From: Capillimicrobium parvum
GTDB taxonomy: Bacteria; Actinomycetota; Thermoleophilia; Solirubrobacterales; Solirubrobacteraceae
Length of the DNA stretch: 64,000 bases
Direction of reading: 5' to 3'
Assembly: GCF_021172045.1 (NCBI RefSeq)
Contig: NZ_CP087164.1
Location: forward strand, 1,674,001 to 1,738,000
Shown: positions 6,702-43,292 of the stretch, in pieces
Position numbering within the stretch: the first letter of the stretch is position 1
How the letters are laid out: each line of letters opens with the position of its first letter
Made by a program: the position numbers and the translations under genes
The notes under the pieces: model-generated
The model's input: only the letters and a program-made list of their open reading frames with translations
What the model was told of the DNA's origin: nothing
The model's database searches: none

Positions 6702-7497
6702 GCGAGAGCGCACGCGCGTCGGGATCGCCGGCATGGGCTTCATCGGGCGGCGCGTGTACGACCGCATCGCGGCCGACTCGGGTCTCGGGCTCGACGTCGT
6801 GTGCGTCTGCGACCGGCAGGCGGCGAAGCTGGCGGGATGTCCGCCCGCGATCGTCAAGTCCGATCTCGCCGGGGTGCGCGTCGCGCGCCCTGATCTCGTC
6901 CTCGAGGCGGCCGGGGCCGCGCTGCTGGCCGAGTGGGGCCGGGAGCTCCTGGGCTTCGCCGACCTCCTGCCGCTTTCGGTCGCCGCGCTCGCCGACGACG
7001 GGCTCGAGGCCGCCCTCGGCGCGGCGGCGCAGGCGTCGGGGCACCGGCTGCTGATCCCGCACGGCGCGCTGGTCGGCGTCGACGCGCTGGCCGAGCGCCA
7101 CGGCGCGTGGCGCTCGGTGACCGTCACGTTCACGAAGCACCCGTCGAACATCGAGCTCACCGCGGTCGGGCTGGACCCGGTGGACATCCGCGAGCGCACC
7201 GTCGTCTTCGACGGCCCGGTCCGCGAGATCGCCCGCCGCTTTCCGCGAAACGTCAACGCGATGGTCACCGCCGCGCTGTCGACGGTCGGCCTCGACCGCT
7301 GCCGCGGCATCCTCGTCGCCGACCCCGGGCTCTCGGAGGCGATCGCGGAGGTGCGCGCGGAGGGCGAGGATGGCGGCCTGGTGCAGACCGTCAAGCGGGG
7401 GCCGATCGTGGGCGTCTCCGGCGTCGAGATGGCGGACGCCGTCATGCACTCGATCGTCACGGCGACAGGCGGCGGTGCGGGGCTGCGCTTCGTCTAG
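6700..7497 (+). CDS. Aspartate dehydrogenase-domain (NadX-like) oxidoreductase
   Basis: 265 aa. The NAD(P)-binding motif GIAGMGFIG starts at residue 9, and the C-terminal catalytic domain has PHGALVGVDAL and RFPRNVNAMVTAAL, matching L-aspartate dehydrogenases. The known reaction oxidises aspartate to iminoaspartate, a precursor of quinolinate for NAD synthesis. No nadA or nadC is nearby. Its stop overlaps that of convergent kynureninase by a few bases, so they are not co-transcribed. A related amino-acid dehydrogenase in catabolism is equally possible. Confidence 0.75.
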   Translation: MRERTRVGIAGMGFIGRRVYDRIAADSGLGLDVVCVCDRQAAKLAGCPPAIVKSDLAGVRVARPDLVLEAAGAALLAEWGRELLGFADLLPLSVAALADDGLEAALGAAAQASGHRLLIPHGALVGVDALAERHGAWRSVTVTFTKHPSNIELTAVGLDPVDIRERTVVFDGPVREIARRFPRNVNAMVTAALSTVGLDRCRGILVADPGLSEAIAEVRAEGEDGGLVQTVKRGPIVGVSGVEMADAVMHSIVTATGGGAGLRFV

Positions 7498-8723
7498 AGC
7501 AGCCGGCGGAGGGCGTCGATGCCGTCCCACACGTCGGTGAAGCGGGTGGTCAGCGGCGACAGGCCGAGGCGGAGGAGGTCTGGCGTCCGGAAGTCGGTGA
7601 TGACCCCGTGCCGGGCGAGCCGCGCGCAGAGCTCCCGGGCGCGGGGGTGGGCGAGCGCCACGTGGGCGCCGCGCCGGGCCGGATCGCGTGGCGACGCGAG
7701 CGTGACGCCGAGCGGCGCGAGCACGGCGTCGCACACCTCGATGGCGAACTCGGTGAGCGCGATGCCCTTGGCGCGGATCGCGTCGATCCCGGCCTCGGCG
7801 GACAGGCGGGCGCCCTCCTGGACGGCGACCAGGCCCAGCACCGGGGGCGTGCCCGACAGCATCGAGCGGATCCCGGGCGCGCGCTCGTATCCCGGCGCCA
7901 TGGCGAACGTGTCGTGGCGGCCGATCCAGCCCCAGATCGGCTGGCGCAGCGCCTCCTGGTGCTCGGCACGAACGTAGAGGAACGCGGGGGCCCCGGGACC
8001 GCCGTTGAGGTACTTGTACGTGCAGCCGGCGGCGAGGTCGACGCCCGCCGAGTCGAGCTCGACCGGTACGGAGCCGACCGTATGGCACAGGTCCCACAGG
8101 ACGAGCGCGCCGGCGTCGTGGGCGACGCGGGTGATCGCCGCGACGTCAGCGAGCGCCGCCGAGCGGTACGAGACGTGCGAGAGCAGGACGAGCGCGGTCT
8201 GCGGTCCCACCGCCTCGGCGACCTGGTCGGCGCGCACGGCGTCGATCGGATCGCCGTGGATCCAGCGGACCGTCAGCCCGCGCTGGGCGGCCAGTCCCTC
8301 GAGGACGTAGCGGTCGGTCGGGAAGTTGTCGACGTCGGTGACGATCTCTGTACGGCCGGGCCGCGCGTCGAGCGCGGCGGACCCCAGCTTGAAGAGGCAG
8401 ACCGTCGTCGAGTCCGCCAGCGCCACCTGACCGGGCGCCGCGCCGAGCATCGACGCCCCGATGAGGTCGCCGATCTCCTCGGGGAGGGTCAGCCAGCGCT
8501 CTTCCCAGGAGCGGATGAGGCGCTCGCCCCACTCGTGCTCGATCGCGTGCGCCAGGCGGTCGCGCGTGGCGAGCGGCAGCCGGCCCAGCGAGTTGCCGTC
8601 GAGGTACACGAGCTCCGGGTCGGGCACGAGGAAGCGCTCGCGAAACGAGGCGAGCGGGTCGCTCGCGTCGAGCGCGTCGGCCCGGTCCCGTGCCGGCGCG
8701 GGCGCCGGGTGGGTGGTCGTCAC
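7494..8723 (-). CDS. kynU: Kynureninase
   Basis: 409 aa from GTG 8723, chosen because AAAGAGGAGG precedes it at ideal spacing; upstream codons carry no family similarity. A PLP enzyme that cleaves kynurenine to anthranilate and alanine. Visible features are VYLDGNSLGRLP near the start, the PLP-phosphate region, LLSHVSYRSAA, LWDLCHTVG with the cofactor Asp, the Schiff-base lysine in CTYKYLNGGPG, and IGRHDTFAM. Length is normal. It is divergent from an operon whose fifth gene resembles kynurenine formamidase, which supports a role in tryptophan or kynurenine breakdown. Confidence 0.9.
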   Translation of the reverse strand: MTTTHPAPAPARDRADALDASDPLASFRERFLVPDPELVYLDGNSLGRLPLATRDRLAHAIEHEWGERLIRSWEERWLTLPEEIGDLIGASMLGAAPGQVALADSTTVCLFKLGSAALDARPGRTEIVTDVDNFPTDRYVLEGLAAQRGLTVRWIHGDPIDAVRADQVAEAVGPQTALVLLSHVSYRSAALADVAAITRVAHDAGALVLWDLCHTVGSVPVELDSAGVDLAAGCTYKYLNGGPGAPAFLYVRAEHQEALRQPIWGWIGRHDTFAMAPGYERAPGIRSMLSGTPPVLGLVAVQEGARLSAEAGIDAIRAKGIALTEFAIEVCDAVLAPLGVTLASPRDPARRGAHVALAHPRARELCARLARHGVITDFRTPDLLRLGLSPLTTRFTDVWDGIDALRRLL

Positions 8724-8811
8724 GTGGCCCTCCTCTTTCACTGCGCTCGGAACGATAGGCGCGTTCAGGACAGAAGCGCTGTGTACGTTGTACCTCGTTC
8801 CTTCATCTGGT

Positions 8812-8861
8812 GCAAGTTCTCCCATCAGGTCTTGACACTTGCTTGATGACGAGCGTAAGGT
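8812..8861 (+). promoter_or_regulatory. Promoter of the SDR-permease-P450 operon
   Basis: TTGACA (8832-8837), an 18-bp spacer and TAAGGT (8856-8861) form a good housekeeping promoter reading rightward; the same -10 hexamer precedes the LysR gene at 2147. GCAAGT (8812-8817) and ACTTGC (8837-8842) form an inverted repeat around the -35, a likely regulator site. The predicted start near 8868 lies downstream of earlier in-frame ATG codons, which is why the first gene is started at GTG 8939. Confidence 0.5.
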
Positions 8862-8938
8862 CGCATCGTCTACGTTGCAGTTTGGCGACGGGGAGAAGAC
8901 TGGATGCCGGTCAACGGGACGGAAGGGACGGGAGCGGC

Positions 8939-9763
8939 GTGAGCCTGGGCGCGACACGACTCGCCGACACGAGCACGCCGCAGCGCAGCGTCGACCCGCG
9001 GGCCGCTGGGCTGAGCCGGTTCGCCGGCCGGGTGGCGCTCGTGACCGGCGCGGCGTCGGGCATCGGCGCCGCCACTGCGGCGCGCCTGGCCGCCGAGGGC
9101 GCCCTGGTCTGGCTCGCCGACGTCGACGTGGACGGAAGCGCCGCCCAGGCGAGCAAGCTGCCGGACGCCGTCGCCTGCGCGGTGGACGTCACGGACGCTG
9201 AGGCGGTCGAAGCGCTCGTCGGCCGGGTCGTCGCCACGAGCGGCCGCCTCGACGTGCTCGTCGCCAACGCCGGCGTGACGCTCGACGCGCCGATCTGGGA
9301 CACGTCCCCGGCTGACCTGGCCCGGGTGCTCGACGTCAACGTCGCCGGGGCGTTCGCCTGCGCGGCCGCCGCGCTGCGCCACATGGTCGCCCGCGGATCG
9401 GGCAGCGTCGTCTTCACCGCCTCCGACGCGGGGCTCGTCGGCTGGCCCGGCCAGGCCGCCTACTGCGCGAGCAAGGGTGCGATCGTCGCCCTCACCCGCG
9501 CCGCCGCGCTCGATGCGGCGCCGCACGGTGTGCGCGTCAACTGCGTCTGCCCCGGCTTCACCGACACGCCGCTCGTCGCGCGCTGGATCGCTGGCAGCGA
9601 CGACCCCGAGGCGGCCCGGCGCGAGGTCGCCGCGACGCAACCGCTCGGTCGGGTGGCCGATCCGGCGGAGATCGCCGCGGCCATCGCCTACCTCGCCAGC
9701 GACGAGAGCACGTTCGTCACCGGGATCGCCCTTCCCGTCGACGGTGGGGTGACCGCGCAGTGA
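8939..9763 (+). CDS. SDR-family oxidoreductase, first gene of the operon
   Basis: 274 aa from GTG 8939, downstream of the predicted promoter and preceded by GGAAGGGACGGG. Classical SDR: VTGAASGIGAATAA cofactor loop, NAGV motif, catalytic Ser-Tyr-Lys with YCASKGAI, and a C-terminal VDGGV. The Asp after strand two (WLADVDVD) suggests NAD rather than NADP. The gene after it is a second SDR overlapping by 4 nt. The pair could act on successive hydroxyl groups of one substrate. Specificity cannot be inferred. Confidence 0.87.
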   Translation: MSLGATRLADTSTPQRSVDPRAAGLSRFAGRVALVTGAASGIGAATAARLAAEGALVWLADVDVDGSAAQASKLPDAVACAVDVTDAEAVEALVGRVVATSGRLDVLVANAGVTLDAPIWDTSPADLARVLDVNVAGAFACAAAALRHMVARGSGSVVFTASDAGLVGWPGQAAYCASKGAIVALTRAAALDAAPHGVRVNCVCPGFTDTPLVARWIAGSDDPEAARREVAATQPLGRVADPAEIAAAIAYLASDESTFVTGIALPVDGGVTAQ

Positions 9764-10515
9764 TCGCCCGGAGGATGACCGGTCGCACGGTCATCGTGAC
9801 CGGCGCGGGGCGCGGGATCGGCGCCGCCATCGCCTTCCGCCTGGGGGGCGAGGGCGCGTGGGTCGCCTGCCTCGACGTCGACGGGCAGTCGGCGGAGGCG
9901 ACCGCCGCGGCGCTGCCCCGCGGCGGTCGCTCCTTCGCCGTCGACGTCGGCGACGAGGCCGCGGTCCGCTCGGCGCTCGCGGCCGTCGTCGCGGAGCGCG
10001 GCGCCGTGCACGCCGTGGTCAACAACGCCGGCATCGCGGGGCCCCAGGAGCCCGCCGGGAGCACGGACCTCGCCGCGTGGGAGCAGACGCTGCGCGTCAA
10101 CCTCACCGGCGCCTTCCTCGTGTCCAAGCACGCGCTCGAGCCGCTGCGCCGGACCGACGGGGCGATCGTCAACGTCGCCTCGGCGCTCGCGTTCGTCGGC
10201 CTGCGCGCCGAGTCGGCGTACGGGCCGTCGAAGGCCGGGCTCGTCCAGCTGACGAAGGGCATGGCGCTCGACTACGCGCCGGACGTCCGCGTCAACGCCG
10301 TGTGTCCCGGCGCGGTGCGCACGCCGATGATCGCCTCGGTCGTCGCGCCCGGCGACTCCGAGGCGCTGATGGCGGAGTACGGCCGCATCCACCCGCTGCA
10401 CCGCCGGCTGGCGGCGCCGGAGGAGATCGCCGACGCGGTCCTCTTCCTCGCCTCCGATGACGCCTCGTTCGTCACCGGCACCGCACTGCTCGTCGACGCG
10501 GGACTGACCGCGTGA
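9760..10515 (+). CDS. SDR-family oxidoreductase, second gene of the operon
   Basis: 251 aa from GTG 9760, in a GTGA overlap with the preceding stop; ATG 9775 is a less likely start because it leaves no space for a ribosome site. Signatures are VTGAGRGIGAAIA, VNNAGIAGP, a catalytic Tyr-Lys in AYGPSKAGL and a C-terminal VDAGL. The CLDVDG segment after strand two suggests NAD. It is a different subfamily from the SDR before it, so this is probably not a recent tandem duplication. It is co-transcribed with the APC permease 16 bp downstream. Confidence 0.87.
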   Translation: MIARRMTGRTVIVTGAGRGIGAAIAFRLGGEGAWVACLDVDGQSAEATAAALPRGGRSFAVDVGDEAAVRSALAAVVAERGAVHAVVNNAGIAGPQEPAGSTDLAAWEQTLRVNLTGAFLVSKHALEPLRRTDGAIVNVASALAFVGLRAESAYGPSKAGLVQLTKGMALDYAPDVRVNAVCPGAVRTPMIASVVAPGDSEALMAEYGRIHPLHRRLAAPEEIADAVLFLASDDASFVTGTALLVDAGLTA

Positions 10516-10531
10516 CCCACAAGGAGGAGTC

Positions 10532-12004
10532 ATGACAGACGACGCAACGCAGTCCAGCCGCCTGCGGCCCGGATCGCTCGGGGTCACCGGCATCGTCGTG
10601 CTCTCAGCCGTGCTCATGGGGCCGGCCATCTCGTTGTTCTTCAACACGCCGGTCGTCGCCGGCAATGCCGGGGCCGCCGTGCCCCTCGTCTTCATCCTGG
10701 CGATGGTCGGCGTCCTGCTCACCGCCTGGACCGTCGCCCAATACTCGCGCAAGATCAGCGGGGCCGGCTCCTTCTACGGGTTCATCCAGCGTGCAGCGGG
10801 CGCCCGGCTCGGCTTCATGGCGGGGTGGGCCACCTTCGGCGCGTATCTCGGCGCGGCCATCGGCGGCGCCGCGATCTCAGGCGCGTTCATCTCGGACCTG
10901 CTCGCCCGTCACGCGAGCATCGACATCCCGTGGATCTGGCTCGCCCTGGCGGTCGTCGCGGTCGTGCTGGCCCTGTCGATCATCGGCATCCGCATCTCCG
11001 AGCGCGTCGGGCTCGTGATGCTCGGCATCGAGCTGCTCGCGGTCGCGATCGTCGTCATCGCCATCCTCGTACAGGGCGGCGACGACGGCTTCAGCACGAA
11101 GCCGTTCACGTTCGACGGCGCTCCGAACGGGCTCGACGGCATCCGTCTCGCCATGGTCTTCGGCGTGCTGTCCTTCGTCGGGTTCGAGATCTCGGCGACG
11201 CTCGCGGAGGAGACGCGCGAGCCGCGGCGCAACGTGCCGCGCGCGGTCATCGGCTGCACCCTGGTCGTCGGCCTGCTGTACGTGATCGGCAGCTACGCGG
11301 TCACCATCGGCTACGGCGTCGACAACATCGACCAGCTCGCCAGCGACCCCGCCGCCTTCGACACGCTGACGGCCCGCTACGTCACGTCGGCCTCGGTCAT
11401 CGTCGACCTCATCCTCATCAACGCGCTCATCGGCGCGACGCTGGCGGTGACAAACGGCTTCGCGCGCGTCGCGTTCGCGCTCGGGCGCAACGGCGCGATC
11501 CCCTCCTGGTTCGGCCGGACGAGCGCGCGCTACGCGACGCCGGTCAACGCGCTCGCCGTCTGCGGGCTCATGAGCATCGTGTTCCTCGTGCCGCTGTCGA
11601 TCGACGGCCAGAACGGGCTCACCGCCTACACGTGGGTCTCCACGCCGGCGATCCTCCTGCTGATCCTCGTGTTCATCGCTGCCAACCTGACCGTCGGGCG
11701 CTTCTACTGGACCAAGCACAAGCCGGAGTTCCGCTGGGCCTCCCACGTGCTCGTCCCGGTCCTCGGGGCGCTCGTCATGCTGCTGCCCATCACCGCCCAG
11801 TTCTGGCCGACGCCGCCGTCGCCGCAGGACCGCCTCCCTTGGATCACGCTCGCCTGGCTGGTGATCGGGGTCGTGGTGATGGTCGCCGCCGGAAGCCGGC
11901 TGGCCGGCGCGTTCGACGCGGAGGCCGCATCCGGGGATCCCGGCCCGGACGACGGGCCGCCGGCGGTGGCCGCGGACGACCGGCAGCCTGCGGGGCGGGC
12001 ATGA
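10532..12004 (+). CDS. APC-superfamily amino acid/amine permease
   Basis: 490 aa with AAGGAGG before the ATG. About 12 hydrophobic helices are seen, starting at residue 18 after a short polar N-terminus; the first helix has GVTGIVVLSAVLMGP and helix 6 has VFGVLSFVGFEISATLAEE, the typical APC discontinuous-helix region. The C-terminal 35 residues are acidic and cytoplasmic. It would import an amino acid, amine or related acid by proton symport. Position between SDRs and a formamidase-like cyclase suggests that it brings in the operon's substrate. Ends in an ATGA overlap with the cyclase. Confidence 0.9.
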   Translation: MTDDATQSSRLRPGSLGVTGIVVLSAVLMGPAISLFFNTPVVAGNAGAAVPLVFILAMVGVLLTAWTVAQYSRKISGAGSFYGFIQRAAGARLGFMAGWATFGAYLGAAIGGAAISGAFISDLLARHASIDIPWIWLALAVVAVVLALSIIGIRISERVGLVMLGIELLAVAIVVIAILVQGGDDGFSTKPFTFDGAPNGLDGIRLAMVFGVLSFVGFEISATLAEETREPRRNVPRAVIGCTLVVGLLYVIGSYAVTIGYGVDNIDQLASDPAAFDTLTARYVTSASVIVDLILINALIGATLAVTNGFARVAFALGRNGAIPSWFGRTSARYATPVNALAVCGLMSIVFLVPLSIDGQNGLTAYTWVSTPAILLLILVFIAANLTVGRFYWTKHKPEFRWASHVLVPVLGALVMLLPITAQFWPTPPSPQDRLPWITLAWLVIGVVVMVAAGSRLAGAFDAEAASGDPGPDDGPPAVAADDRQPAGRA

Positions 12005-12770: not shown

Positions 12771-14066
12771 GTGGCGTCAGGACACATCTCGGACATCGGC
12801 TGCCGGTTCGACCCGCTCGACCCGAGCCAGGCCGACGGTCGCTACGCGCTCTGGGCCGAAGCGCGCGAGCATGAGCCGGTCTTCTACAGCCCGAAGTACG
12901 ACCTCTGGTTCGTGACGCGCTATCACGATGTCGAGGCGGTGCTCAAGGACGTCTCCGGCTTCTCGAAGTGCGATGACTTCGCGCCCGCCCGTCCGTGGCC
13001 CGAGGAGGTGCAGCGGGAGCTCGACAAGGGCTACTCGTGGCACTACTTCCTCAGCAACAACGATCCGCCGGAGCACACGCCGCTCAAGCGCGTCGTGACC
13101 AAGGCGATGTCGCGGCGTCAGACCGCCGCGATGGAGCCGCGCGTCCGCACGATCGCCCGCGAGCTGATCGACGGGTTCGCGCCTGACGGGATCGCCGAAC
13201 TGGGTGAGAAGCTGGCGTGGCCGTTCCCCGCGCTCGTGGCGTTGGAGCTCCTCGGGTTTCCCGGCGAGGACATGGAGCTGCTCAAGACCTGGGGCGACGA
13301 GTGGGTGCTGCTGTTCTCCGACGCGCCGGTGGAGACGGAGGCGATGGTCGCTGCGGCCGCGCAGTTCGTGGCGTTCCAGAACTACGTGCTGGACCACCTT
13401 CGCGACCGCGAGCGCAGCCCGCGCGAGGATCTCCTCAGCCACCTGGTCCGCGAGCTGCACGCCGACCCGGAGATCAACCTCGCGCTGGAGGACATCGTCA
13501 ACCTCCCGATCCAGGTGATGACGGCCGGACACGTGACGGGCACGCTGCTCCTGCTCGAGGAGCTCACCGAGCTGCTCGACGGTCCGGATCTGATGGCCGA
13601 CGTACGGGCCGACCCCGGCAAGATCCCGGCGCTGGTCGAGGAGGCGCTCCGCTTCGAGCCGCCGGTCCACGGCACGTTCATCCGTGCGCTGGACGACGTC
13701 GAAGTGGGCGGCGTCACGATCCCCGCCGACGCTCGAGTCCTTCTGTCCTACGGGTCGGCCAACCACGATCCGGCGTGCTTCGCCGATCCGGACACGTTCG
13801 CCATCGATCGCCCCGACGTCGATCGCCACCTGGGGTTCGGGAAGGGGACGCACTACTGCTCCGGAGCTCAGCTCGCGCGGCTCGAGCAGCGTGTGGCGCT
13901 CGAGCTCCTGCTCGAGCGCTGTCCCAACCTGCGGCGTGTCGAGGATCGCCCGCCGCAGCGCGTGCGACACATGTGGCTGCGCGGATACGAATCGCTGTGG
14001 GTCCAGTGGGACGCGCCGCCGGCGTCCTCGCCGACAGGGACACCGTCCCCTCGCCGGCGGACATGA
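12771..14066 (+). CDS. Cytochrome P450 with altered I-helix (acid lost)
   Basis: 431 aa, GTG start 32 bp after the cyclase stop. The heme loop is HLGFGKGTHYCSGAQLA with Cys363 as thiolate ligand, and the ExxR helix is EEALRF. The oxygen-activating I-helix reads TAGHVTGT: Thr256 is kept but the acidic residue before it, normally Asp or Glu, is Val255. That change should weaken proton delivery to bound oxygen unless the substrate supplies it. A soluble, class I-type P450 that needs a ferredoxin, but none is encoded in the operon. The next gene is a second, distinct P450. Confidence 0.9.
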   Translation: MASGHISDIGCRFDPLDPSQADGRYALWAEAREHEPVFYSPKYDLWFVTRYHDVEAVLKDVSGFSKCDDFAPARPWPEEVQRELDKGYSWHYFLSNNDPPEHTPLKRVVTKAMSRRQTAAMEPRVRTIARELIDGFAPDGIAELGEKLAWPFPALVALELLGFPGEDMELLKTWGDEWVLLFSDAPVETEAMVAAAAQFVAFQNYVLDHLRDRERSPREDLLSHLVRELHADPEINLALEDIVNLPIQVMTAGHVTGTLLLLEELTELLDGPDLMADVRADPGKIPALVEEALRFEPPVHGTFIRALDDVEVGGVTIPADARVLLSYGSANHDPACFADPDTFAIDRPDVDRHLGFGKGTHYCSGAQLARLEQRVALELLLERCPNLRRVEDRPPQRVRHMWLRGYESLWVQWDAPPASSPTGTPSPRRRT

Positions 14067-14076
14067 GGAGGGTGCG

Positions 14077-15270
14077 ATGGCCGAGACGCGGCTGATCTAC
14101 GATCCCTACGGCGCGCAGGCCCACGCCGACCCGTACCCGATCTACCGGCGCCTGCGCGACGAGGCGCCGCTCTACCACAACCCCGATCGGGGGTTCTGGG
14201 CGGTTTCGCGCTACGACGACGTGGCGATGGTGAGCCGCGATTGGGAGCGCTTCACGGTGACGAAGGGCGTCGACATCGACAACGCCGGCGACCTGCTCGG
14301 TCCCGGGTTCTTCCTCGCCCAGGACCCGCCTGTGCACGGCAAGATGCGCGCGGTCGTCAAGCAGGCGTTCGGCCTGCGGACGATCCGCGACCTCACCGAG
14401 GCGGGCATCCGGCGCGAGGCCGAGGCGCTCGTCGCGGACATCGCGGTGCGACCGGAGGCGGATCTCGCGGTCGACCTCGCCTGGCTGCTGCCGTCACGGG
14501 CGATGGGCGTGCTGCTCGGGTTCCCGCGCGAGGACGCCGACCGGTTGCGCGACCTCGGCATCGCGTTCATGCGCCGCGAGGTCGACCAGACGGTGCCGCC
14601 GGCGAGCTCCGAGGAGGCCGGAATGGCGCTCATGGAGTACTTCGAAGTGATCATCGATGAGCGGCGCCGCGCGCCGCGCGACGACCTGCTCTCGGCGATC
14701 GCCACGGCGACGATCGACGGCGTGCCGCTCGCGGGCGAGGCCCCCGGCATGGCTCTGCTCATCTACGTCGGAGGGTTCGAGAACGTCGGGTGCATGCTCA
14801 CGAACGCGCTGTACTGGCTCGCCCTGCATCCCGACCAGCGAACGTGGCTGGCCGCGAACCCGGACGGCCTGCCGGCGGCGATCGAGGAGGTCCTCCGCTT
14901 CGACGGCCCACAGCAGAGCTTCAAGCGCACGACGACGCAGGCGGTCGAGCTGCACGGCCGGCGGGTGCCGGCCGGAGCGCCGGTCTACGTCCTGTACGGC
15001 GCAGCGAACCGCGACGAGCGCAAGTTCCCCGATGCGGACCGCTTCGACGTGCACCGCACGGGTGGTCGCCAGCTGTCCTTCGGCGACGGCATCCACCACT
15101 GTCTCGGCGCTCCGATGGCCCGCCTCGAGGGCCAGATCGTGCTCGAGACCGTTCTGCGCCGGATGCCGCACTACGAGCTGACGGGTGAGCCCGAGCTCGC
15201 GCCGAGCCACGCGGTGCGCGGCTTTCTGACCATGCCGGTCGCGCCCGCCTGCTCGCCGGCCGCCGCCTGA
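14077..15270 (+). CDS. Cytochrome P450 with altered I-helix (alcohol lost)
   Basis: 397 aa; GAGGAGGG precedes ATG 14077, which is 10 bp after the first P450. The heme loop is LSFGDGIHHCLGAPMA with Cys342, and the ExxR helix is EEVLRF. The I-helix reads VGGFENVG: Glu235 is kept but the conserved Thr is Asn236, followed by Val237. So this enzyme lacks the alcohol of the acid-alcohol pair, while its neighbour lacks the acid. P450s with such changes use substrate-assisted proton delivery or do unusual chemistry. Last gene of the operon. Confidence 0.9.
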   Translation: MAETRLIYDPYGAQAHADPYPIYRRLRDEAPLYHNPDRGFWAVSRYDDVAMVSRDWERFTVTKGVDIDNAGDLLGPGFFLAQDPPVHGKMRAVVKQAFGLRTIRDLTEAGIRREAEALVADIAVRPEADLAVDLAWLLPSRAMGVLLGFPREDADRLRDLGIAFMRREVDQTVPPASSEEAGMALMEYFEVIIDERRRAPRDDLLSAIATATIDGVPLAGEAPGMALLIYVGGFENVGCMLTNALYWLALHPDQRTWLAANPDGLPAAIEEVLRFDGPQQSFKRTTTQAVELHGRRVPAGAPVYVLYGAANRDERKFPDADRFDVHRTGGRQLSFGDGIHHCLGAPMARLEGQIVLETVLRRMPHYELTGEPELAPSHAVRGFLTMPVAPACSPAAA

Positions 15271-19063: not shown

Positions 19064-19603
19064 ATGGGAGAGAGAGCCGGCAAGCCGCGCCGTCCCGTCA
19101 TCGACCCGGAGGCCGCCGCCCGGTCCGGGCTGCGTTCCTGCCTCGGCCGTTTCGCCACCGGCGTCGCGGTCGTCACGTTCGGCGGCCCGGCGGGCCCCGG
19201 CGAGCGCCACGGCATCACCGTCAACTCGTTCACGTCGGTCTCGCTCGACCCGCCGCTCGTGCTCGTCAGCGTCGGCAAGCGCGCGCGCTCGCACGACCTC
19301 CTGCGGGGCCGGGCCTTCACGGTCAACGTGCTCGGCGCCGAGCAGGAGCCCGTCGCCCGCTGCTTCGCGGGTGGCCCCCCGATCGAGCTGTCCTGGATCG
19401 AGGGGGAGCACGCGCCGCGGCTGACCGGCGTCCTCGCCCATCTCGAGTGCACGCCGTGGCGGGCCTACGACGCGGGCGACCACACGCTGTTCCTCGGCGA
19501 GGTCGCCGGCTACGACTTCCGCGACGGCGACGCGCTCGCCTTCCTCACCAGCCGCTTCACCATCCTGGCCGAGGAGCAACTCGGCCACGAGCACCTCATC
19601 TAG
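19064..19603 (+). CDS. hpaC: Flavin reductase partner of the hydroxylase
   Basis: 179 aa from ATG 19064; a TTG nine bases earlier is possible. Flavin-reductase (split-barrel FMN-binding) fold: GRFATGVAVVTF, then the flavin-binding NSFTSVSLDPPLVL, and the H-x-LFLGEV strand near the end. Such proteins reduce FAD or FMN with NAD(P)H and hand it to a separate monooxygenase. The hydroxylase gene starts 14 bp after its stop, so they form the two-component HpaBC-type system. No ribosome site precedes the start, consistent with a short or absent leader. Confidence 0.88.
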   Translation: MGERAGKPRRPVIDPEAAARSGLRSCLGRFATGVAVVTFGGPAGPGERHGITVNSFTSVSLDPPLVLVSVGKRARSHDLLRGRAFTVNVLGAEQEPVARCFAGGPPIELSWIEGEHAPRLTGVLAHLECTPWRAYDAGDHTLFLGEVAGYDFRDGDALAFLTSRFTILAEEQLGHEHLI

Positions 19604-19617
19604 GAGAAACCAGTCAC

Positions 19618-21090
19618 ATGGGCGCACGCACCGGCCAGGAGTACCTCGATCGTCTGTCGAGCCTGAAGACGACGGTCCAGATCGGCGGAGAGACGCTGGA
19701 GGGCGGCATCCCCGACCATCCGGCGTTCCGCAACCTGACGCGCACCTACGCGCGCCTGTACGACCTGCAGCACGCGCCCGAGCACCGCGACGTCATGACC
19801 TACGAGTCGCCGACGAGCGGCGAGCGGGTCGGCACGTCGTTCATGGTCCCGCGCACGCACGAGGACCTGGTCAAGCGCCGGGAGGCGTTCAAGGTCTGGG
19901 CCGACGACAGCCTCGGCACCCTCGGCCGCACCGGCGACTACCTCAACTCCTGCCTCATGGCCCTGTCGGAGGCCGGCGACTGGTTCGCGCAGGCCGATCC
20001 CGCGTTCGCCGGCAACATCAAGCGCTACTACGAGATGGTGCGCGAGCAGGACCTGCTCACCACCCACACGCTCATCCCGCCGCAGGCGAACCGCAGCCAG
20101 GGCGCCGGCCAGCAGATGGGCGGCAAGCTCACCGCGCACATCGTGAGCGAGGACGACAACGGCATCGTCGTGCGCGGCGCGCGCCTGCTCGCCACGATCG
20201 GCCCGACCGCCGACGAGCTGCTGGTCTTCCCGTCGACGGTGCTCAAGGGCAACCCCGAGGACGCGCCGTACTCGTTCGCGTTCGCCATCAACTGCGACGC
20301 ACCCGGCCTGCGCTTCATCTGCCGCGAGTCGATGGACCACGGCCGCAGCCACTTCGACCACCCGCTCGGCTCGCGGTTCGAGGAGATGGACGCGGTGGTC
20401 GTCTTCGACGACGTCCACGTGCCCTACGAGCGCTGCTTCCTGCTCGGCAACCCGCAGATGTGCAACGGCTTCTACGCCGAGACGTCGGCGGCGGTGCACA
20501 TGACCCACCAGGTCACCACCCGGACGATGGCGAAGACCGAGTACCTGCTCGGGCTGATCTCGTGCATGACCGAGGCGATCGGCATCGAGCAGTTCCCGCA
20601 CGTGCAGGCCGACATCGCCGAGGTGATCGTCACCCTCGAGCAGTCGCGCGCGCTCGTCCGCGCCGCGGAGGCGGACGCCGCGCCGAACGCCTACGGCGTG
20701 ATGACCCCGCGCTGGGAGCCGCTGAACGCCAACCGCAACTGGTACCCGAAGACCTACCAGCGCTTCCCGGAGATCCTGCGCAAGCTCGGCGCCAGCGGCC
20801 TGATGGCGCTGCCGACCGAGGCCGACGTCGAAGGCGCCGCCCACGACGACATCGAGGCCTACCTGCAGTCGGCGACGCTCACCGGCGCCGAGCGCGTGCG
20901 GCTGTTCCGCCTGGCGTGGGACACGTGCATCAGCGCGTTCGCCGGCCGTCAGACGCTCTACGAGTACTACTTCTTCGGCGACCCGGTGCGGATGGCGGGC
21001 GCGTTCGTCAACTCGTACGACCGCGAGCCCTACAAGGCACGGGTGCGCGAGTTCCTCGCCCGTGCCGACGAGCCGGTCGCGGCGGCCTGA
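19618..21090 (+). CDS. hpaB: 4-hydroxyphenylacetate 3-monooxygenase, oxygenase component
   Basis: 490 aa from ATG 19618 (TAGGAGAAA upstream). The HpaB/HpaH fold has an N-terminal domain, a middle flavin-binding barrel (HTLIPPQANRSQ and ARLLATIGPTADELLVFP) and a C-terminal helical domain (ISCMTEAIGIEQFPHVQ, ending FFGDPVRMAGAF). It uses reduced FAD and oxygen to add an ortho hydroxyl to a phenol, giving 3,4-dihydroxyphenylacetate from 4-hydroxyphenylacetate. The matching extradiol dioxygenase at 25659 supports this substrate. Followed by a 14-bp-stem hairpin. Confidence 0.9.
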   Translation: MGARTGQEYLDRLSSLKTTVQIGGETLEGGIPDHPAFRNLTRTYARLYDLQHAPEHRDVMTYESPTSGERVGTSFMVPRTHEDLVKRREAFKVWADDSLGTLGRTGDYLNSCLMALSEAGDWFAQADPAFAGNIKRYYEMVREQDLLTTHTLIPPQANRSQGAGQQMGGKLTAHIVSEDDNGIVVRGARLLATIGPTADELLVFPSTVLKGNPEDAPYSFAFAINCDAPGLRFICRESMDHGRSHFDHPLGSRFEEMDAVVVFDDVHVPYERCFLLGNPQMCNGFYAETSAAVHMTHQVTTRTMAKTEYLLGLISCMTEAIGIEQFPHVQADIAEVIVTLEQSRALVRAAEADAAPNAYGVMTPRWEPLNANRNWYPKTYQRFPEILRKLGASGLMALPTEADVEGAAHDDIEAYLQSATLTGAERVRLFRLAWDTCISAFAGRQTLYEYYFFGDPVRMAGAFVNSYDREPYKARVREFLARADEPVAAA

Positions 21091-21092
21091 CC

Positions 21093-21127
21093 TGCGCTTT
21101 GGGTCCGAGAGGTGGACCCAAAGCGCA
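21093..21127. terminator. Strong bidirectional hairpin terminator
   Basis: TGCGCTTTGGGTCC (21093-21106) pairs perfectly with GGACCCAAAGCGCA (21114-21127) around a 7-nt loop. It sits 2 bp after the hpaB stop and 8 bp before the end of the convergent aldolase gene. There is no T run, as usual in such GC-rich genomes. It would end transcripts from both sides. Confidence 0.8.
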
Positions 21128-21135
21128 ACTCGCCG

Positions 21136-22038
21136 TCAGGCGGGGGCGAGCTCGCCGACGTGCGGGCTCCTGGCGAGGAGGGCCAGCACCTTCTGCCGGC
21201 CCGCCTCGCTCAGCGGGGCGAGCGGGATGCGGGCGTGGGCCGAAGGCAGGATCCCCATGCGGTGCATGATCCACTTCGCCGGGACCGGGTTGGTCTCGGC
21301 GAACGCGGCGTCGACGAGCGGGTGCAGGTCGTAGTGCAGCTGCCGCGCCCGCTCGTGGTCGCCCGCGGCGAACGCGTTGTACAGCTCCGCGCACGGCACC
21401 GGCGCGAAGTTGCCGACGCAGCTGAGGTGCCCGGAGCCGCCGAGGCAGAGCATCGGGTAGCAGAGCAGCTCGATCCCGGACAGCGCGATGAAGTCCGTGC
21501 CGCACTCGTCGAGGACGTAGGAGACGTGCTCGAAGTCCTTCGTCGTCTCCTTGATGCCGACGATGTTCTCGTGCGCGCGGCGGAGCCGGCCGACCGTCGC
21601 CGGCGTGATGTCCACCGCGGCGCGGATCGGCACGTTGTAGACGATGATCGGCAGGTCCGGGAACTCGCTCGCCACCTGCGAGTACCACCGGAACAGCCCC
21701 TCCTGCTGCGCACGCCCGTAGTACGGCGTGACGACGAGCGCCGCCGCCGCCCCCAGTCGCGCGGCCTCGGCGGTCAGCTCGAGCGTCTCGTGCATGAGCG
21801 CGCTGCCGGTGCCGGGGAGGAACGGGACGCGCCCGTCGATCGCGCTCGCCGCGGCCCGCATGACCGCGAGGCGCTCCTCGATCGTCTGGGAGGTCGGCTC
21901 GCCGGTCGACCCGCCGACCGAGATCGCGTGCGTGCCCTGCGACAGCTGCCAGTCGATCAGCGGCCCGATCGTGTCGAGGTCGAGCTCGCCGTCGTCGGTG
22001 AACGGGGTGATGAGCGGGGTGATCGCTCCCTTGATCAT
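21136..22038 (-). CDS. Dihydrodipicolinate synthase-family aldolase/lyase
   Basis: 300 aa from ATG 22038 with GGAGG upstream. A (beta/alpha)8 barrel with the family motifs VGGSTGEPTS near residue 45, YNVP (catalytic Tyr) and the Schiff-base lysine in VGIKETTKD. The family includes pyruvate-forming lyases and keto-acid aldolases or dehydratases besides lysine-synthesis DapA. It overlaps the fusion gene upstream by 4 nt within the homoprotocatechuate cluster, so a catabolic role on a pathway oxo-acid is more likely than lysine synthesis. Confidence 0.85.
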   Translation of the reverse strand: MIKGAITPLITPFTDDGELDLDTIGPLIDWQLSQGTHAISVGGSTGEPTSQTIEERLAVMRAAASAIDGRVPFLPGTGSALMHETLELTAEAARLGAAAALVVTPYYGRAQQEGLFRWYSQVASEFPDLPIIVYNVPIRAAVDITPATVGRLRRAHENIVGIKETTKDFEHVSYVLDECGTDFIALSGIELLCYPMLCLGGSGHLSCVGNFAPVPCAELYNAFAAGDHERARQLHYDLHPLVDAAFAETNPVPAKWIMHRMGILPSAHARIPLAPLSEAGRQKVLALLARSPHVGELAPA

Positions 22039-23462
22039 GACTCCTCCTTTGCGGCGCGCCACGCTTCGTATTCGGGCAGCCGATCCTTCGCGAGGGGGTA
22101 CGTGTCACGGACGCTCTCGCCCGCGGTGACGCGCTCGAGGGCCCACTCCTCGCGCCGCTCCTGCTCGAGGGCGTCGAGCGCGACCTCCTCGGCGAGCGCC
22201 GCGGGGATGACCAGCACGCCCTCGGCGTCGCCGACCATCACGTCGCCGGGCATGACGAGCACGCCGGCGCAGGTGACCGGCACGTTGTCCTCGAGCGGGA
22301 AGTGCTTGAGGCCGAGGACCGCGGCGTGCGGCGCCCGGTAGTAGGTGGGCACGTCGAGCTCGCCGAACGACGGCGAGTCGCGGACGCCCCCGTCGGTGAC
22401 GATGCCCGTCGCGCCGCGCCGCAGTGCGCGCATCGCGAGGATGTCGCCGATCGTGCCGGCGCCGGCCTCGTCGCGCGCCTCGATGACCAGGACCTCGTCG
22501 GCGGTCAGGGACTCGATCGTCGCCTTCTGGGCGTTGAGCTCGCCCGTCGCGCTCTGCGCCTTGACGACGTCCTCGCGCATCGCGACGTAGCGCAGCGTGT
22601 GCGCGTAGCCGAGCAGGCGCAGGTCCGGGCGCGCCGGCTTCAGGCCGCCGAGGAACGTGTTGGCGATGCCGCGCTTGCGCAGCTGGACCGTGAGGGTGGC
22701 GGTGGAGACGCTGTTCAGCGCGTGACGCGCCTGCGCCGAGAGCTCGTGCTCGCGGGCGACCGGTGCGTTGTACGCGTCGGCGCGCACCTGCGGGCTGACC
22801 TTCGGCATCGCCCCGTAGTGCGCGAGCTCGGTCTCGGCCTCGGCGATCTCGTTGCGCAGCGTGCCCACGCCGTCGATCTCGACCTCGACGACGTCGCCGG
22901 GCTGGACCGGCTGCGACCCGGCCGGCGTGCCGGTGAGGATGAGGTCGCCCGGCTCGAGCGTCATGAGGCGCGACAGGTCGGCCACGAGCGCGCCGAAGTC
23001 GTAGATGAGGTTCGCGCTGCTGTCCTCCTGCACGGTCTCGCCGTTGACCCGGGTGCGCAGGACGAGCGCGCCGAGGTCCAGTTCGCCGGCCGGGACGAGG
23101 CGCGGGCCGATGGGGGTGAACCCGTCCTGGCCCTTGGCGAGGACGTTCGAGCCGCGGTCGGCCCAGCGGAAGTCGTAGACGCCGAAGTCGTTGGCCGCGG
23201 TGATCCAGCCGACGTGCGCGGCGCCCTCCTGCGGCGTGACGTTGCGCGCGCGGGTACCGATGACCACGCCGATCTCGCCCTCGAGGACCAGCAGCTCGCA
23301 GCCGCGGGGCCGGACGACCGGCGCGCCGTCGCGCGAGATCGACGACGACGGCTTGAGGAAGTAGGAGGGGTGGGCCGGGAACCGGCCGCGCTGCTCGGCG
23401 CGGCTGCGGAAGTTCAGGTGGACGGCGACGATCTTCGGCGGCCGCAGTGACTCGAGGTCCAT
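22035..23462 (-). CDS. FAH-domain isomerase/decarboxylase fused to an RraA-type aldolase
   Basis: 475 aa from ATG 23462; a GTG three codons upstream is possible. Residues about 1-210 are a fumarylacetoacetate-hydrolase-fold domain of the HpaG type (LLVLEGEIGVVIGTRA with metal-binding glutamates, LTGTPAG). Residues about 225-445 are an RraA/HMG-aldolase domain with GTIGDILAMRALRRG and IVTDGGVRDS, so the catalytic Arg-Asp pair is present, and GDAEGVLVIPAALAEEV. One polypeptide could therefore decarboxylate or isomerise the ring-opened acid and then cleave to pyruvate. Divergent from hpaE across 38 bp. Confidence 0.88.
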   Translation of the reverse strand: MDLESLRPPKIVAVHLNFRSRAEQRGRFPAHPSYFLKPSSSISRDGAPVVRPRGCELLVLEGEIGVVIGTRARNVTPQEGAAHVGWITAANDFGVYDFRWADRGSNVLAKGQDGFTPIGPRLVPAGELDLGALVLRTRVNGETVQEDSSANLIYDFGALVADLSRLMTLEPGDLILTGTPAGSQPVQPGDVVEVEIDGVGTLRNEIAEAETELAHYGAMPKVSPQVRADAYNAPVAREHELSAQARHALNSVSTATLTVQLRKRGIANTFLGGLKPARPDLRLLGYAHTLRYVAMREDVVKAQSATGELNAQKATIESLTADEVLVIEARDEAGAGTIGDILAMRALRRGATGIVTDGGVRDSPSFGELDVPTYYRAPHAAVLGLKHFPLEDNVPVTCAGVLVMPGDVMVGDAEGVLVIPAALAEEVALDALEQERREEWALERVTAGESVRDTYPLAKDRLPEYEAWRAAKEES

Positions 23463-23482
23463 GTGGCGCACATTATCGTCTT

Positions 23483-23492
23483 TCGTATACGA
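23483..23492. promoter_or_regulatory. GntR-type operator in the 38-bp divergent promoter
   Basis: TCGTATACGA is a perfect 10-bp palindrome with the GTATAC core common among GntR regulators of the FCD group. It lies between the fusion gene (ATG 23462, leftward) and hpaE (ATG 23501, rightward). TACGAT (23488-23493) can serve as a -10 for hpaE, and GATAAT on the other strand (23477-23472) for the fusion gene. A bound repressor would cover both promoters. The GntR gene at 25000 is the likely partner. Confidence 0.6.
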
Positions 23493-23500
23493 TTGCCGCG

Positions 23501-25000
23501 ATGATCGACACCGAGACGGCGATCCGCGCCCAGCAGCACTACATCGCGGGCGACTTCCGCGACGGCGCCGGGGGCCGGACCTTCACCACGCTGAACCCGA
23601 CGAGCAACGAGGTCATCGCCGAGGTCGCGGCCGGCGACACCGCCGACGTCGACGCCGCCGTCGCCGCGGCGCGCCGCGCGTTCGACGAGGGACTCTGGCC
23701 GCGCATGTCCGCGAAGGAGCGGGCCGTCGTGCTGCGCCGCATCGCGAACCTCATCCGCGAGCACGCGCAGGAGTTCATCGCGCTCGAGTGCCTCGACATC
23801 GGCATGCCGATCGCCCAGATGAAGGGCCTCGCCGCGCGGGCGGCCGAGAACTTCGACTACTTCGCCGGCGTCATCGAGGAGCTGGCGGGCAAGGCGTGGC
23901 AGACCGGCTCGTTCCTGAACTACTCGGTGTTCAAGCCGGTCGGCGTGGCCGGGCTGATCATGCCGTGGAACGCGCCGCTCATGCTCTCGACCTGGCGCAT
24001 CGCGCCCTGCCTGGCCGCGGGCAACACCATCGTCCTCAAGCCCGCCGAGTGGTCGCCGCTGACCGCGACGCGCCTGGCCGAGCTGATGGCCGAGGCGGAG
24101 CTCCCCGAGGGGGTCTTCAACGTCATCCACGGCTTCGGCGAGGCGGCGGGGGCACCGCTGTCCGCGCACCCCGGCGTGAACCTCATCTGCTTCACGGGGG
24201 AGACGACGACCGGCTCGATCATCATGGCCGCGGGCTCGCCGACGCTGAAGCGCACGTCGTTCGAGCTGGGCGGCAAGTCGCCGGTCGTGGTCTTCGACGA
24301 CGCCGGCGCGGACTTCGAGCGCCTCGTCGACGCGGTCGTCTTCCAGATCTTCTCCATGAACGGCCAGCGCTGCACGGCCGGCTCGCGGCTGCTCGTGCAG
24401 GAGGGCCTCTACGAGCGGCTGGTCGAGGCGGTGGCGGCGCGGGCGCGCAACATCCGCGTCGGCGACCCGTTCGACGCGCAGACCGAGCTCGGCCCCCTCA
24501 TCCGGCCCGAGCACCACGAGCGCGTGCTCGGCTACATCGCCGGGGCGCGCGAGGCCGGCGCGCGCATCCTCGCCGGCGGCGACCGTCCGGCGCACCTGCC
24601 CGACGGCAACTACCTCGCCGCGACCGTCATCGCCGACGTCAGCGAGGACATGAAGGTCTTCCAGGAGGAGATCTTCGGTCCCGTGCTCGTCGCGATGCCG
24701 TTCACCGACGAGGGCGAGGCCGTCCGGCTCGCCAACGCGACGAAGTACGGCCTGGCCGCGTACGTCTGGACCAACGACCTCACGCGCGCGCACCGCGTCG
24801 CGCAGTCCATCGACACCGGTCTGTGCTGGGTGAACTCCCAGAACGTCCGCGACCTGCGCACGCCGTTCGGCGGCGTCAAGGGCAGCGGGATCGGCCGCGA
24901 GGGCGGCGAGTACTCGTTCGAGTTCTACTGCGACCAGGAGACCATCCACGTCGCGCTCGGCACGCCGCACGTCCCCCGGCTGGGACTGGGCGGCGGCTGA
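23501..25000 (+). CDS. hpaE: 5-carboxymethyl-2-hydroxymuconate semialdehyde dehydrogenase-like ALDH
   Basis: 499 aa, ATG 23501. Full-length NAD(P) aldehyde dehydrogenase with IMPWNAPLMLSTWRIAP, the glutamate in FELGGKSPVV, the nucleophilic cysteine in NGQRCTAGSRLL and a C-terminal TPFGGVKGSGIGREGG. The HpaE group oxidises the semialdehyde from homoprotocatechuate cleavage to the diacid; presence of HpaD and the fusion protein in the same locus supports this reaction. It overlaps the GntR gene by one base (TGATG), so dehydrogenase, regulator and dioxygenase form one unit. Confidence 0.88.
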   Translation: MIDTETAIRAQQHYIAGDFRDGAGGRTFTTLNPTSNEVIAEVAAGDTADVDAAVAAARRAFDEGLWPRMSAKERAVVLRRIANLIREHAQEFIALECLDIGMPIAQMKGLAARAAENFDYFAGVIEELAGKAWQTGSFLNYSVFKPVGVAGLIMPWNAPLMLSTWRIAPCLAAGNTIVLKPAEWSPLTATRLAELMAEAELPEGVFNVIHGFGEAAGAPLSAHPGVNLICFTGETTTGSIIMAAGSPTLKRTSFELGGKSPVVVFDDAGADFERLVDAVVFQIFSMNGQRCTAGSRLLVQEGLYERLVEAVAARARNIRVGDPFDAQTELGPLIRPEHHERVLGYIAGAREAGARILAGGDRPAHLPDGNYLAATVIADVSEDMKVFQEEIFGPVLVAMPFTDEGEAVRLANATKYGLAAYVWTNDLTRAHRVAQSIDTGLCWVNSQNVRDLRTPFGGVKGSGIGREGGEYSFEFYCDQETIHVALGTPHVPRLGLGGG

Positions 25001-25662
25001 TGACGGTCGCGCCGAGCAAGCTGGAGCGCACGTACTCGCTGCTGCGCGGGCGGATCCTCGAGGGCGTCTACGGGCCGGGCCACCGGCTCGTGATCGACGC
25101 CCTCGCCCGCGAGCTCGGTGTCAGCCAGATGCCGGTGCGCGAGGCGATCCGCCGCCTCGAGGCCGAGGGCTGGGTCGCCTACGTGCGCAACCAGGGCTTC
25201 CAGGTCGCGCCGATCGACGCCGCCTCCTGGACCGAGGCGACCGCGACGCTCGCTGTCCTCGAGGGCTACGCGACCGCGCTCGCCGCCCCGCACATCACCG
25301 CCGGCGACCTCGCCCGGATGGCCGAGCTCAACGCCCGCATGCTCGCGGCGATCGAGGAGCTCGACGTGCTGGAGATCTCGAAGGCCAACCAGGCCTTCCA
25401 CCAGGTCATCTACGACCGCTGTCCCAACGGCCATCTGCGTCGCGAGCTCGAGACGATCCAGGAACGGCTGAACACGCTGCGCAGCTCGATCTTCATGTTC
25501 ATCCCCACGCGTGGGCGCGCGTCGCTGGCCGAGCACGAGGCGCTGATGGAGCGCATCGAGCGCGGGGCCGACCCGATCGCGATCGAGATGGTCGCGCGCG
25601 AGCACAAGATGCACACGGTGGCCGCGTACCAGCAGCGCCTGAACGACGAGGAGACGTCATGA
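25000..25662 (+). CDS. GntR-family (FCD) transcriptional regulator
   Basis: 220 aa, ATG 25000. Residues about 8-75 are the GntR winged helix (ELGVSQMPVREAIRRLEAEGWV); residues about 85-215 are the all-helical FCD ligand domain, with likely metal-binding histidines in HQVIYDRC, EHEALMERI and EHKMHTVAAY. It is sandwiched between hpaE and hpaD with 1-nt and 4-nt overlaps, so it is made with the enzymes it probably controls. The GTATAC palindrome at 23483-23492 is its best candidate site. Confidence 0.9.
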   Translation: MTVAPSKLERTYSLLRGRILEGVYGPGHRLVIDALARELGVSQMPVREAIRRLEAEGWVAYVRNQGFQVAPIDAASWTEATATLAVLEGYATALAAPHITAGDLARMAELNARMLAAIEELDVLEISKANQAFHQVIYDRCPNGHLRRELETIQERLNTLRSSIFMFIPTRGRASLAEHEALMERIERGADPIAIEMVAREHKMHTVAAYQQRLNDEETS

Positions 25663-26672
25663 GCCGGGTCCAAGAGCTGATCGGCGAGGTCAAGCGCCCG
25701 CCGTTCGACATCATGCGCGCGGCGCACGTGGAGCTCGTCGTGCGCGACCTCGACGCGTCGCTGCACTTCTACGACGAGCTGCTCGGGATGATCGTCACCG
25801 AGCGCACCGCCGAGGCCGCGTACCTGCGCGGGTGGGAGGAGTACCTGCATCACAGCCTGGTGCTGCGCGTGGGCGACGAGCCGGCGATCGACCACGTCTC
25901 CTTCCGGGTGGCGGGCGACGCGGACCTCGACGTCATCGCCGCGGACTTCGAGCGCCGCGGCTGCCCGGTCCGCGAGCACACCGGCGAGCCCGGCCAGGGC
26001 CGCGCCATCCGCGTCCAGGATCCGCTCGGCTTCCCGCTCGAGTTCTTCCACGACATGGACCGCGTCGACAGCAACACGCAGGCGTTCCACCTGCAGCGCG
26101 GCGCGCCGATCCTGCGCTTCGACCACCTGAACTTCCACTCACCGGACCCGGAGGCGGCGTTCCGGTTCTGGCAGGAGCTCGGCTTCCGCGCGACCGAGTA
26201 CATCTCGACCGACGGTGAGGACGAGAAGCTCACCGGCGCGTGGCTGCGCCGCAAGCCGACCGTGCACGACGTCGCGCTCACCGCCGGTACCGGCCCGCGC
26301 CTGCACCACTTCGCGATGTGGCTGGCCGAGCCGAGCAGCGTGCTGCGCGTGTGCGATCAGCTCGCGGCCGGCGGCTGGGTCGAGGCGATCGAGCGCGGCC
26401 CGGGGCGCCACGGCGTCTCGAACGCCTTCTTCGTGTACCTGCGCGACCCCGACGGCCATCGCATCGAGCTGTACACCTGCGACTACTACACCGGCGACCC
26501 GGACCACCCGCCGAAGCGCTGGAGCGTGACCGATCCGCGGTGCCGGTCGTTCTGGGGCACGCGCGCGCCGGACCGCTGGTACGAGGAGTCCTCGGTGGTG
26601 CTCGACCTCGACGGCCGAGTCGTCGAGACCCGCGCCGCGGGCGTCGACGAGCGCACGGAGATCATGGCCTGA
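25659..26672 (+). CDS. hpaD: Homoprotocatechuate (3,4-dihydroxyphenylacetate) 2,3-dioxygenase
   Basis: 337 aa, ATG 25659 in an ATGA overlap. Type I extradiol dioxygenase with two vicinal-oxygen-chelate halves. The C-terminal half has the metal ligands His156 (FDHLNF), His217 (LHHFAMW) and Glu270 (HRIELYT), and the second-sphere His203 (TVHDVALTAG). The ERGPGRHGVSNAF and YYTGDPDHPP blocks closely match the Mn- and Fe-dependent homoprotocatechuate enzymes of Arthrobacter and Brevibacterium. It opens the ring next to the hydroxyls to give 5-carboxymethyl-2-hydroxymuconate semialdehyde. Confidence 0.93.
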   Translation: MSRVQELIGEVKRPPFDIMRAAHVELVVRDLDASLHFYDELLGMIVTERTAEAAYLRGWEEYLHHSLVLRVGDEPAIDHVSFRVAGDADLDVIAADFERRGCPVREHTGEPGQGRAIRVQDPLGFPLEFFHDMDRVDSNTQAFHLQRGAPILRFDHLNFHSPDPEAAFRFWQELGFRATEYISTDGEDEKLTGAWLRRKPTVHDVALTAGTGPRLHHFAMWLAEPSSVLRVCDQLAAGGWVEAIERGPGRHGVSNAFFVYLRDPDGHRIELYTCDYYTGDPDHPPKRWSVTDPRCRSFWGTRAPDRWYEESSVVLDLDGRVVETRAAGVDERTEIMA

Positions 26673-41549: not shown

Positions 41550-41629
41550 GCCGCGGCGGGCGCCACGTCCCGCTGTCCGCAACCGGTGCGCGGGGCGTGC
41601 AAGGCGCCCCGCGCGGGTAGCGAGCGGGC

Positions 41630-41920
41630 ATGAGCCGCAAACAAGGGGCACGAGCCGGCGTGGTGGCATTCCTCGCGGCGGCGGCAGGAGCGGTCGGCTG
41701 GGGGCTGTGGCGAACGCGCGGGCGCGGAGCCCGGGCGCACGAGCCGGCGGAATGGGCGTGCGAGTGCGGGCAGCGCTTCCGCTTCAGCGGCGCCGGCCGC
41801 CACCGTGTCTACTGGACCGAGGGCGCCCCGGCGCACGAGCCCGTCGTCGGCGACCGCTGCCCGTCGTGTGACCGCCCGCTGCCCGGCGGGCGCGAGGCCG
41901 TCGTGCCGGCGATGGACTGA
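41630..41920 (+). CDS. Small membrane-anchored zinc-ribbon-like protein
   Basis: 96 aa, ATG 41630, preceded by GGGTAG 9 nt upstream. Residues 8-27 form one membrane helix (AGVVAFLAAAAGAVGWGLW). The soluble part has two cysteine pairs, CECGQRF and CPSCDRP, spaced 32 residues apart, consistent with a small zinc ribbon. No family name is assigned. The last 13 codons and the stop lie in the first unit of a 50/52-bp tandem duplication that continues downstream. Confidence 0.55.
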   Translation: MSRKQGARAGVVAFLAAAAGAVGWGLWRTRGRGARAHEPAEWACECGQRFRFSGAGRHRVYWTEGAPAHEPVVGDRCPSCDRPLPGGREAVVPAMD

Positions 41921-41993
41921 CCCACGCCCTACCCGGCGGGGCGCAAGGCGGTTCGTGCCGGCGATGGACTGACCCACGCCCTACCCGGCGGGG
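41882..41993. repeat. Tandem duplication of about 52 bp over a gene end
   Basis: Units 41882-41931 (50 bp) and 41932-41983 (52 bp) both start CCCGGCGGG and share an identical 41-bp core (41901-41941 and 41953-41993, which runs into a third CCCGGCGGGG). The first unit encodes the C-terminus and stop codon of the zinc-ribbon protein; the second is non-coding and carries two extra bases. Replication slippage is the simplest origin. Confidence 0.85.
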
Positions 41994-42022
41994 CCCGGGG
42001 CGGCGGTGGATAGATTGCCCGC

Positions 42023-43201: not shown

Positions 43202-43229
43202 CGGAGGCGGAGGGAACGGACGCGCGGGC

Positions 43230-43246: not shown

Positions 43247-43292
43247 CCCTCGGCGAGGTGGTTCGTCCGCGGCTCCCGGCTATCATCGGGGC

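Follow-up and report, generated by a model that had tools for sequence, protein, structure and literature searches.

The acid-alcohol pair of the I helix is the textbook proton-delivery pair of cytochromes P450. In the GC-rich genome of Capillimicrobium parvum, two adjacent P450 genes each lack a different half of this pair, which raises the question of whether the two losses belong together or whether the genes only share a neighborhood. We analyzed these genes, here called P450-1 and P450-2, within a 64,000-nucleotide stretch of the genome (the window) and followed their relatives and neighbors through other genomes and solved structures.

Motifs and fold of the two P450s

P450-1 (positions 12771 to 14066 of the window, plus strand, 432 codons including the stop) is followed on the same strand by P450-2 (14077 to 15270, plus strand, 398 codons including the stop). 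The stop codon of the first gene ends at 14066 and the ATG of the second is at 14077, leaving a gap of 10 bp. The I-helix core of P450-1 reads AGHVTG (A252, G253, H254, V255, T256, G257), with V255 (codon gtg) at the acid place and T256 kept; that of P450-2 reads GGFENV (G232, G233, F234, E235, N236, V237), with E235 kept and N236 (codon aac) at the threonine place. The canonical pair, D or E followed by T or S, is absent in both, being V-T in P450-1 and E-N in P450-2. The heme loops (FGKGTHYCSG in P450-1 and FGDGIHHCLG in P450-2) both fit the pattern FxxGxxxCxG with its cysteine, and the ExxR motifs are intact as EALR and EVLR, respectively. Spacing, cores, heme loops, and ExxR motifs all agree with what an earlier note on this DNA had read from the letters.

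Both proteins belong to the P450 superfamily, scoring 94.4 bits (P450-1) and 70.2 bits (P450-2) against the Pfam p450 model PF00067 (cut-off, 22.8). In HMMER alignments against solved P450s, both cores line up with the canonical AGx(E/D)T segment with no alignment slip, which upholds the view that a different half of the pair is broken in each gene. Modeling of the I helices, which the earlier note had proposed, placed both cores within a long helix (residues 239 to 270 in P450-1 and 219 to 250 in P450-2). The AlphaFold models are modest (pLDDT 64.0 and pTM 0.67 for P450-1; pLDDT 61.1 and pTM 0.61 for P450-2) and, built on 3-row alignments, too weak for active-site geometry. Foldseek searches with both models returned ordinary bacterial P450s, confirming the P450 fold and nothing beyond it. 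Every match to TxtE, CYP119, and the other NCBIfam P450 names was far below cut-off, which leaves both proteins outside any named subfamily.

The kynureninase-linked operon and its conservation

The P450 genes lie in a run of same-strand genes next to a kynureninase. The kynureninase gene (7494 to 8957, minus strand, start codon unsure) is divergent from SDR 1 (8810 to 9763, plus strand, start codon also unsure, with the SDR domain beginning at about 9017). SDR 2 (9760 to 10515), an APC-type amino-acid permease (10532 to 12004), and a Cyclase-family metal hydrolase of PF04199 (12001 to 12738) follow on the plus strand ahead of P450-1. The presence of two SDRs in the operon, stated in the earlier note, is borne out, and a second genome retains both alongside P450-1. 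This genome, G382, comes from another family of the same order (78% complete, about 340 contigs). Its 10.7-kb contig C332 repeats the minus-strand kynureninase (55% identity, clipped by the contig end) and the plus-strand SDR 1 (68%), SDR 2 (68%), permease (64%), and P450-1 (68%). When 232 genomes of the order were searched, the same two, the host and G382, had P450-1 at an identity of at least 60% and the permease at E <= 1e-90.

The G382 operon has neither the cyclase nor a second P450; the gene directly after P450-1 encodes a CoA ligase of the benzoate-CoA-ligase family (TIGR02262, 383.8 bits; cut-off, 375.25). Judged by gene order in this one comparison of the two genomes with the operon, the conserved unit is kynureninase, SDR, SDR, permease, and P450-1, with one P450 and not two. 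The cyclase and P450-2 would be either an extra in the host lineage or a loss in that of G382. No treatment of a kynureninase-SDR-P450 operon was found by title and abstract in the literature among the matches listed, which is weak evidence of absence. The ligase gene of G382 is accompanied by a convergent PaaX-type regulator, a pairing (at 5663 to 8205 of L069) that points to a benzoate-type end product.

The kynureninase scored 268.7 bits against TIGR01814 (cut-off, 246.4) and is the sole match of the genome to this model. Its closest solved counterpart is PDB 1qz9 (333.6 bits), the P. fluorescens enzyme. The alignment with 1qz9 retains an SW and a GT stretch, which may correspond to W64, G281, and T282, the residues setting L-kynurenine specificity. 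A tryptophan 2,3-dioxygenase gene lies elsewhere in the genome, about 0.8 Mb from the operon, so the kynureninase may serve plain tryptophan breakdown. The SDR-SDR-permease-P450 partners are not known as members of the textbook tryptophan operon. They could then form an unrelated aromatic-catabolism unit that is merely divergent from a kynureninase working from tryptophan 2,3-dioxygenase to anthranilate. That the genome has a single kynureninase along with the dioxygenase fits this explanation, as do HpaB-, HpaI-, HpaG-, HpaE-, and HpaD-type genes nearby at 19.6 to 26.7 kb. However, the kynureninase keeps its place beside SDR 1 in another family of the order, and HpaB and FAH queries had no match on the operon contig of G382; we consider a chance neighborhood unlikely, if still to be reckoned with. 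The genes at 19600 to 26672 of the window are of the 4-hydroxyphenylacetate meta-cleavage type, with HpaB-1, HpaE, and HpaD matches above their cut-offs and a FAH/HpaG-like gene. The aldolase among them scores best against HpaI, below the cut-off of that model, yet exceeds the DapA cut-off.

With a kynureninase close by, two roles were considered for the cyclase. Its nearest solved relative is isatin hydrolase A (PDB 5nnb, 123.1 bits), with which it shares the metal motif HxGTHxDxPxH. For isatin hydrolase, the motif is described as HxG[T/A]HxDxPxH, along with tryptophan residues that stack the substrate (PMC6117287). The cyclase carries the motif as HVGTHMDAPAH, but in an alignment mapped by eye, the isatin-site tryptophans named there face L, F, and V, and an isatin role is weakened accordingly. 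A role as kynurenine formamidase is weakened by the score (TIGR03035, 53 bits against a cut-off of 223.05). PF04199 genes seem often to lie near P450s. Of 8 matches in the host genome, one besides that of the window is 18 nt before a P450, and two more stand about 1.3 kb and about 3 kb away from P450 matches; in genome G563, a P450 with the core AGHVTV converges on a PF04199 gene. These loci are at 1208078 to 1210396, 4738527 to 4741602, and about 41554 to 45415 of host contig G000:C1 (L145, L146, and L144) and at 8494 to 10611 of L119.

The earlier note had inferred that P450-1 and P450-2 use polar substrates that assist in oxygen activation, perhaps one after the other on one molecule together with the two SDRs; on this reading they are a matched pair, with the substrate completing each broken acid-alcohol pair. 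The 10-bp spacing on one strand, the loss of different halves, and the shared run with two SDRs all favor such a partnership. Conservation does not: the operon of G382 includes P450-1, yet the next gene there is the CoA ligase. Nor does G382 appear in the set of 5 genomes whose P450-2 matches reach E <= 1e-66 within a 399-genome sample, which we take to equal the class sample that includes G382. Asparagine at the alcohol place was found in none of nine P450-2 relatives (37 to 44% identity), whose cores are AGTHTT, AATDTV, ASSGTT, AGYETT, AGTATV, AGYETS, AGVETT, and, in two cases, AGNETT; no relative confirms a conserved role for N236. With about 30% identity between them and places in separate parts of a 57-row tree, P450-1 and P450-2 do not look coevolved. 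We regard the matched pair as improbable. Another P450 tandem was seen in genome G015 (C13, about 8486 to 11005; L074), with the canonical cores AAHETT and ASHETT and 36 to 38% identity to P450-1.

Broken acid-alcohol pairs in relatives and solved P450s

The acid place varies among the closest relatives of P450-1. Its syntenic orthologue in G382 (67 to 68% identity) has the core AGHATG, with alanine at the acid place, whereas a second G382 homologue (60%) on another contig, outside the operon, keeps the acid as AGHETG; no kynureninase or SDR relative was found on the contig of the latter. Five relatives from other genomes (38 to 44%) read AGHVTV. Copies of at least 60% identity are rare: G382 is the sole other genome with one among the 232 of the order (a third genome matches at 38%), and the class sample of 399 genomes again gave only the host and G382. 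In a phylum sample of 396 genomes the best foreign match was 42%, and a contig scan of named genomes gave a single relative, at 31%. On plasmids, the best identities among the matches listed were 37.8% for P450-1 and 39.7% for P450-2, and all matching records were below 60% (2 of the 25 listed for P450-1 and 4 of the 25 listed for P450-2 were fetched).

P450-1 pairs with the AGHATG operon copy both in the 57-row tree (99/94), where the AGHETG copy stands beside them, and in a 21-row tree (92/89). The 21-row tree unites the AGHVTV clade with that of P450-1 at 79/93, a placement that is not firm, and in the 57-row tree the two clades sit at a fork without resolution; the acid may have been lost once or twice. 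Six P450s missed by the heme pattern (L105, L108, L111, and L116 of the host genome, plus L078 and L081) were read separately and are not in the trees. On comparison of P450-1 with relatives that have V, A, or E at the acid place, no clear replacement carboxylate was found. The pair E263-E264 is not put forward as a substitute: it occurs in both acid-less operon copies and is absent from the E copy, but it is missing in the AGHVTV copies too and lies about two turns further along.

Deviating pairs are not rare. The 24 P450 matches of the host genome merge to 21 genes, 15 of which keep D or E plus T or S (L108, counted here, has serine in place of threonine). The other six are P450-1, P450-2, one AGINTT, two GGMQEP, and L111, the alignment of which is unsure. 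Among 57 distinct aligned P450s, a sample chosen largely by similarity to P450-1 and P450-2, 16 deviate; valine stands at the acid place in 8 and asparagine at the alcohol place in 1, P450-2 itself. These alignments indicate that deviation is ordinary variation and that the acid loss of P450-1 is shared by its relatives. In the two GGMQEP proteins (L113 and L115; G000:C1:3835600-3839000 and 4611500-4615000), Gln-Glu replaces the acid-alcohol pair, and they group together (100/98).

By sequence comparison, both kinds of loss are also already known from solved P450s. TbtJ1 (PDB 5vws; 34% identity in the Foldseek search with the P450-1 model), which we take to belong to a thiopeptide antibiotic context, has the core AGHLTT and, like P450-1, an aliphatic residue at the acid place with the threonine kept. 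It differs in having leucine instead of valine and a second threonine right after the pair, where P450-1 has glycine. CYP107X1 (PDB 7wex), among the listed structure matches of P450-2, shares Glu-Asn in its core AGYENT, as compared by sequence alone, but has threonine after the asparagine where P450-2 has valine. CYP107P2 (AGHEAT) is another solved P450 with a single loss, keeping the acid and having alanine at the alcohol place.

P450 families, including CYP176, are by convention drawn at about 40% sequence identity, and P450cin (CYP176A1) was absent among the best 60 matches listed for P450-2 against solved structures. The GGFENV core of P450-2 has the acid-Asn arrangement of P450cin, a likeness of working and not of family membership; P450-1 does not have it. 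P450cin, known here by description, keeps the acid and has asparagine where threonine is usual (PMC8398027), but its acid is aspartate (D241), not glutamate, and its substrate is a terpene. According to that paper, Asn242 steers selectivity and is no functional substitute for threonine, and cineole hydroxylation is about 80% coupled (PMC8398027). Given that coupling and the similar losses in solved P450s, losing half of the pair need not mean unusual chemistry, which the earlier note had named, along with reliance on the substrate, for enzymes lacking part of it.

It is very unlikely that one or both P450s use H2O2 in the manner of peroxygenases and have no need of the pair. Such enzymes are a known class without it: PMC9366932 lists peroxygenases alongside P450cin and P450eryF as exceptions, and PMC5818669 describes Arg-Pro in place of the pair in CYP152 peroxygenases. 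But Arg-Pro is absent from both proteins, with their V-T and E-N; each keeps one half of the pair, and the heme loops are usual. The same kinds of single loss are found in solved P450s not filed as peroxygenases, which we take to use O2.

Sequencing or assembly error, which the earlier note would have suspected from canonical orthologues, is extremely improbable, and P450-1 shows no sign of it: V/E (gtg/gag) and N/T (aac/acc) are one base apart each, and N236 of P450-2 is confirmed by no near relative, but the genome is a single contig, the P450-1 orthologue (AGHATG) and five relatives (AGHVTV) also lack the acid, and AGYENT occurs in a solved P450.

The observation of the earlier note is thus confirmed and its interpretation partly supported, with the matched-pair idea as the weak part. 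Since both pair losses are already known in other solved enzymes, the kynureninase-linked operon is the more useful lead.

Possible roles of P450-1 and P450-2

Our preferred, tentative reading is that a rare amino-acid catabolic operon has P450-1 as a constant member that does not need the I-helix acid, with P450-2 a separate addition that has a substrate-orienting asparagine. The comparisons establish motifs, homology, synteny, and co-occurrence; from these we infer, as follows, which reactions take place, on what class of substrate, and by which proton route. The permease would import an amino acid, possibly of the kynurenine or aryl-butyrate type; P450-1 and the two SDRs would oxidize it or a precursor; and kynureninase cleavage would end the route with alanine and an anthranilate-type acid. 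P450-1 would act as a normal monooxygenase that depends on O2 and ferredoxin (the latter is an assumption, since the operon shows no ferredoxin gene). Instead of an I-helix carboxylate, T256 and ordered water would probably deliver the second proton, perhaps together with polar substrate groups. In P450-2, the glutamate could still relay protons, and N236 most likely orients the substrate, by analogy with Asn242 of P450cin. Substrate-assisted oxygen activation is possible in these broken-pair P450s.

A more specific and doubtful proposal is that the operon is a dioxygenase-independent entry into the kynureninase reaction. After import, a 2-amino-4-aryl(or alkyl)butanoate would be hydroxylated by P450-1 at its gamma carbon, and an SDR would turn the alcohol into the gamma-ketone that kynureninase needs. 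Cleavage would then give alanine and an aryl acid, to be taken up by a CoA ligase as in G382. If the ammonium or carboxylate of the substrate supplied the proton, this would account for the decay of the acid to V and A within the operon copies and for its retention as E outside. The V, A, and E variants within one small clade, with E outside the operon, offer a natural test of the roles of acid and alcohol. If a P450 and an SDR do make kynurenine-type gamma-keto amino acids, the operon would open a new way into aromatic amino-acid catabolism.
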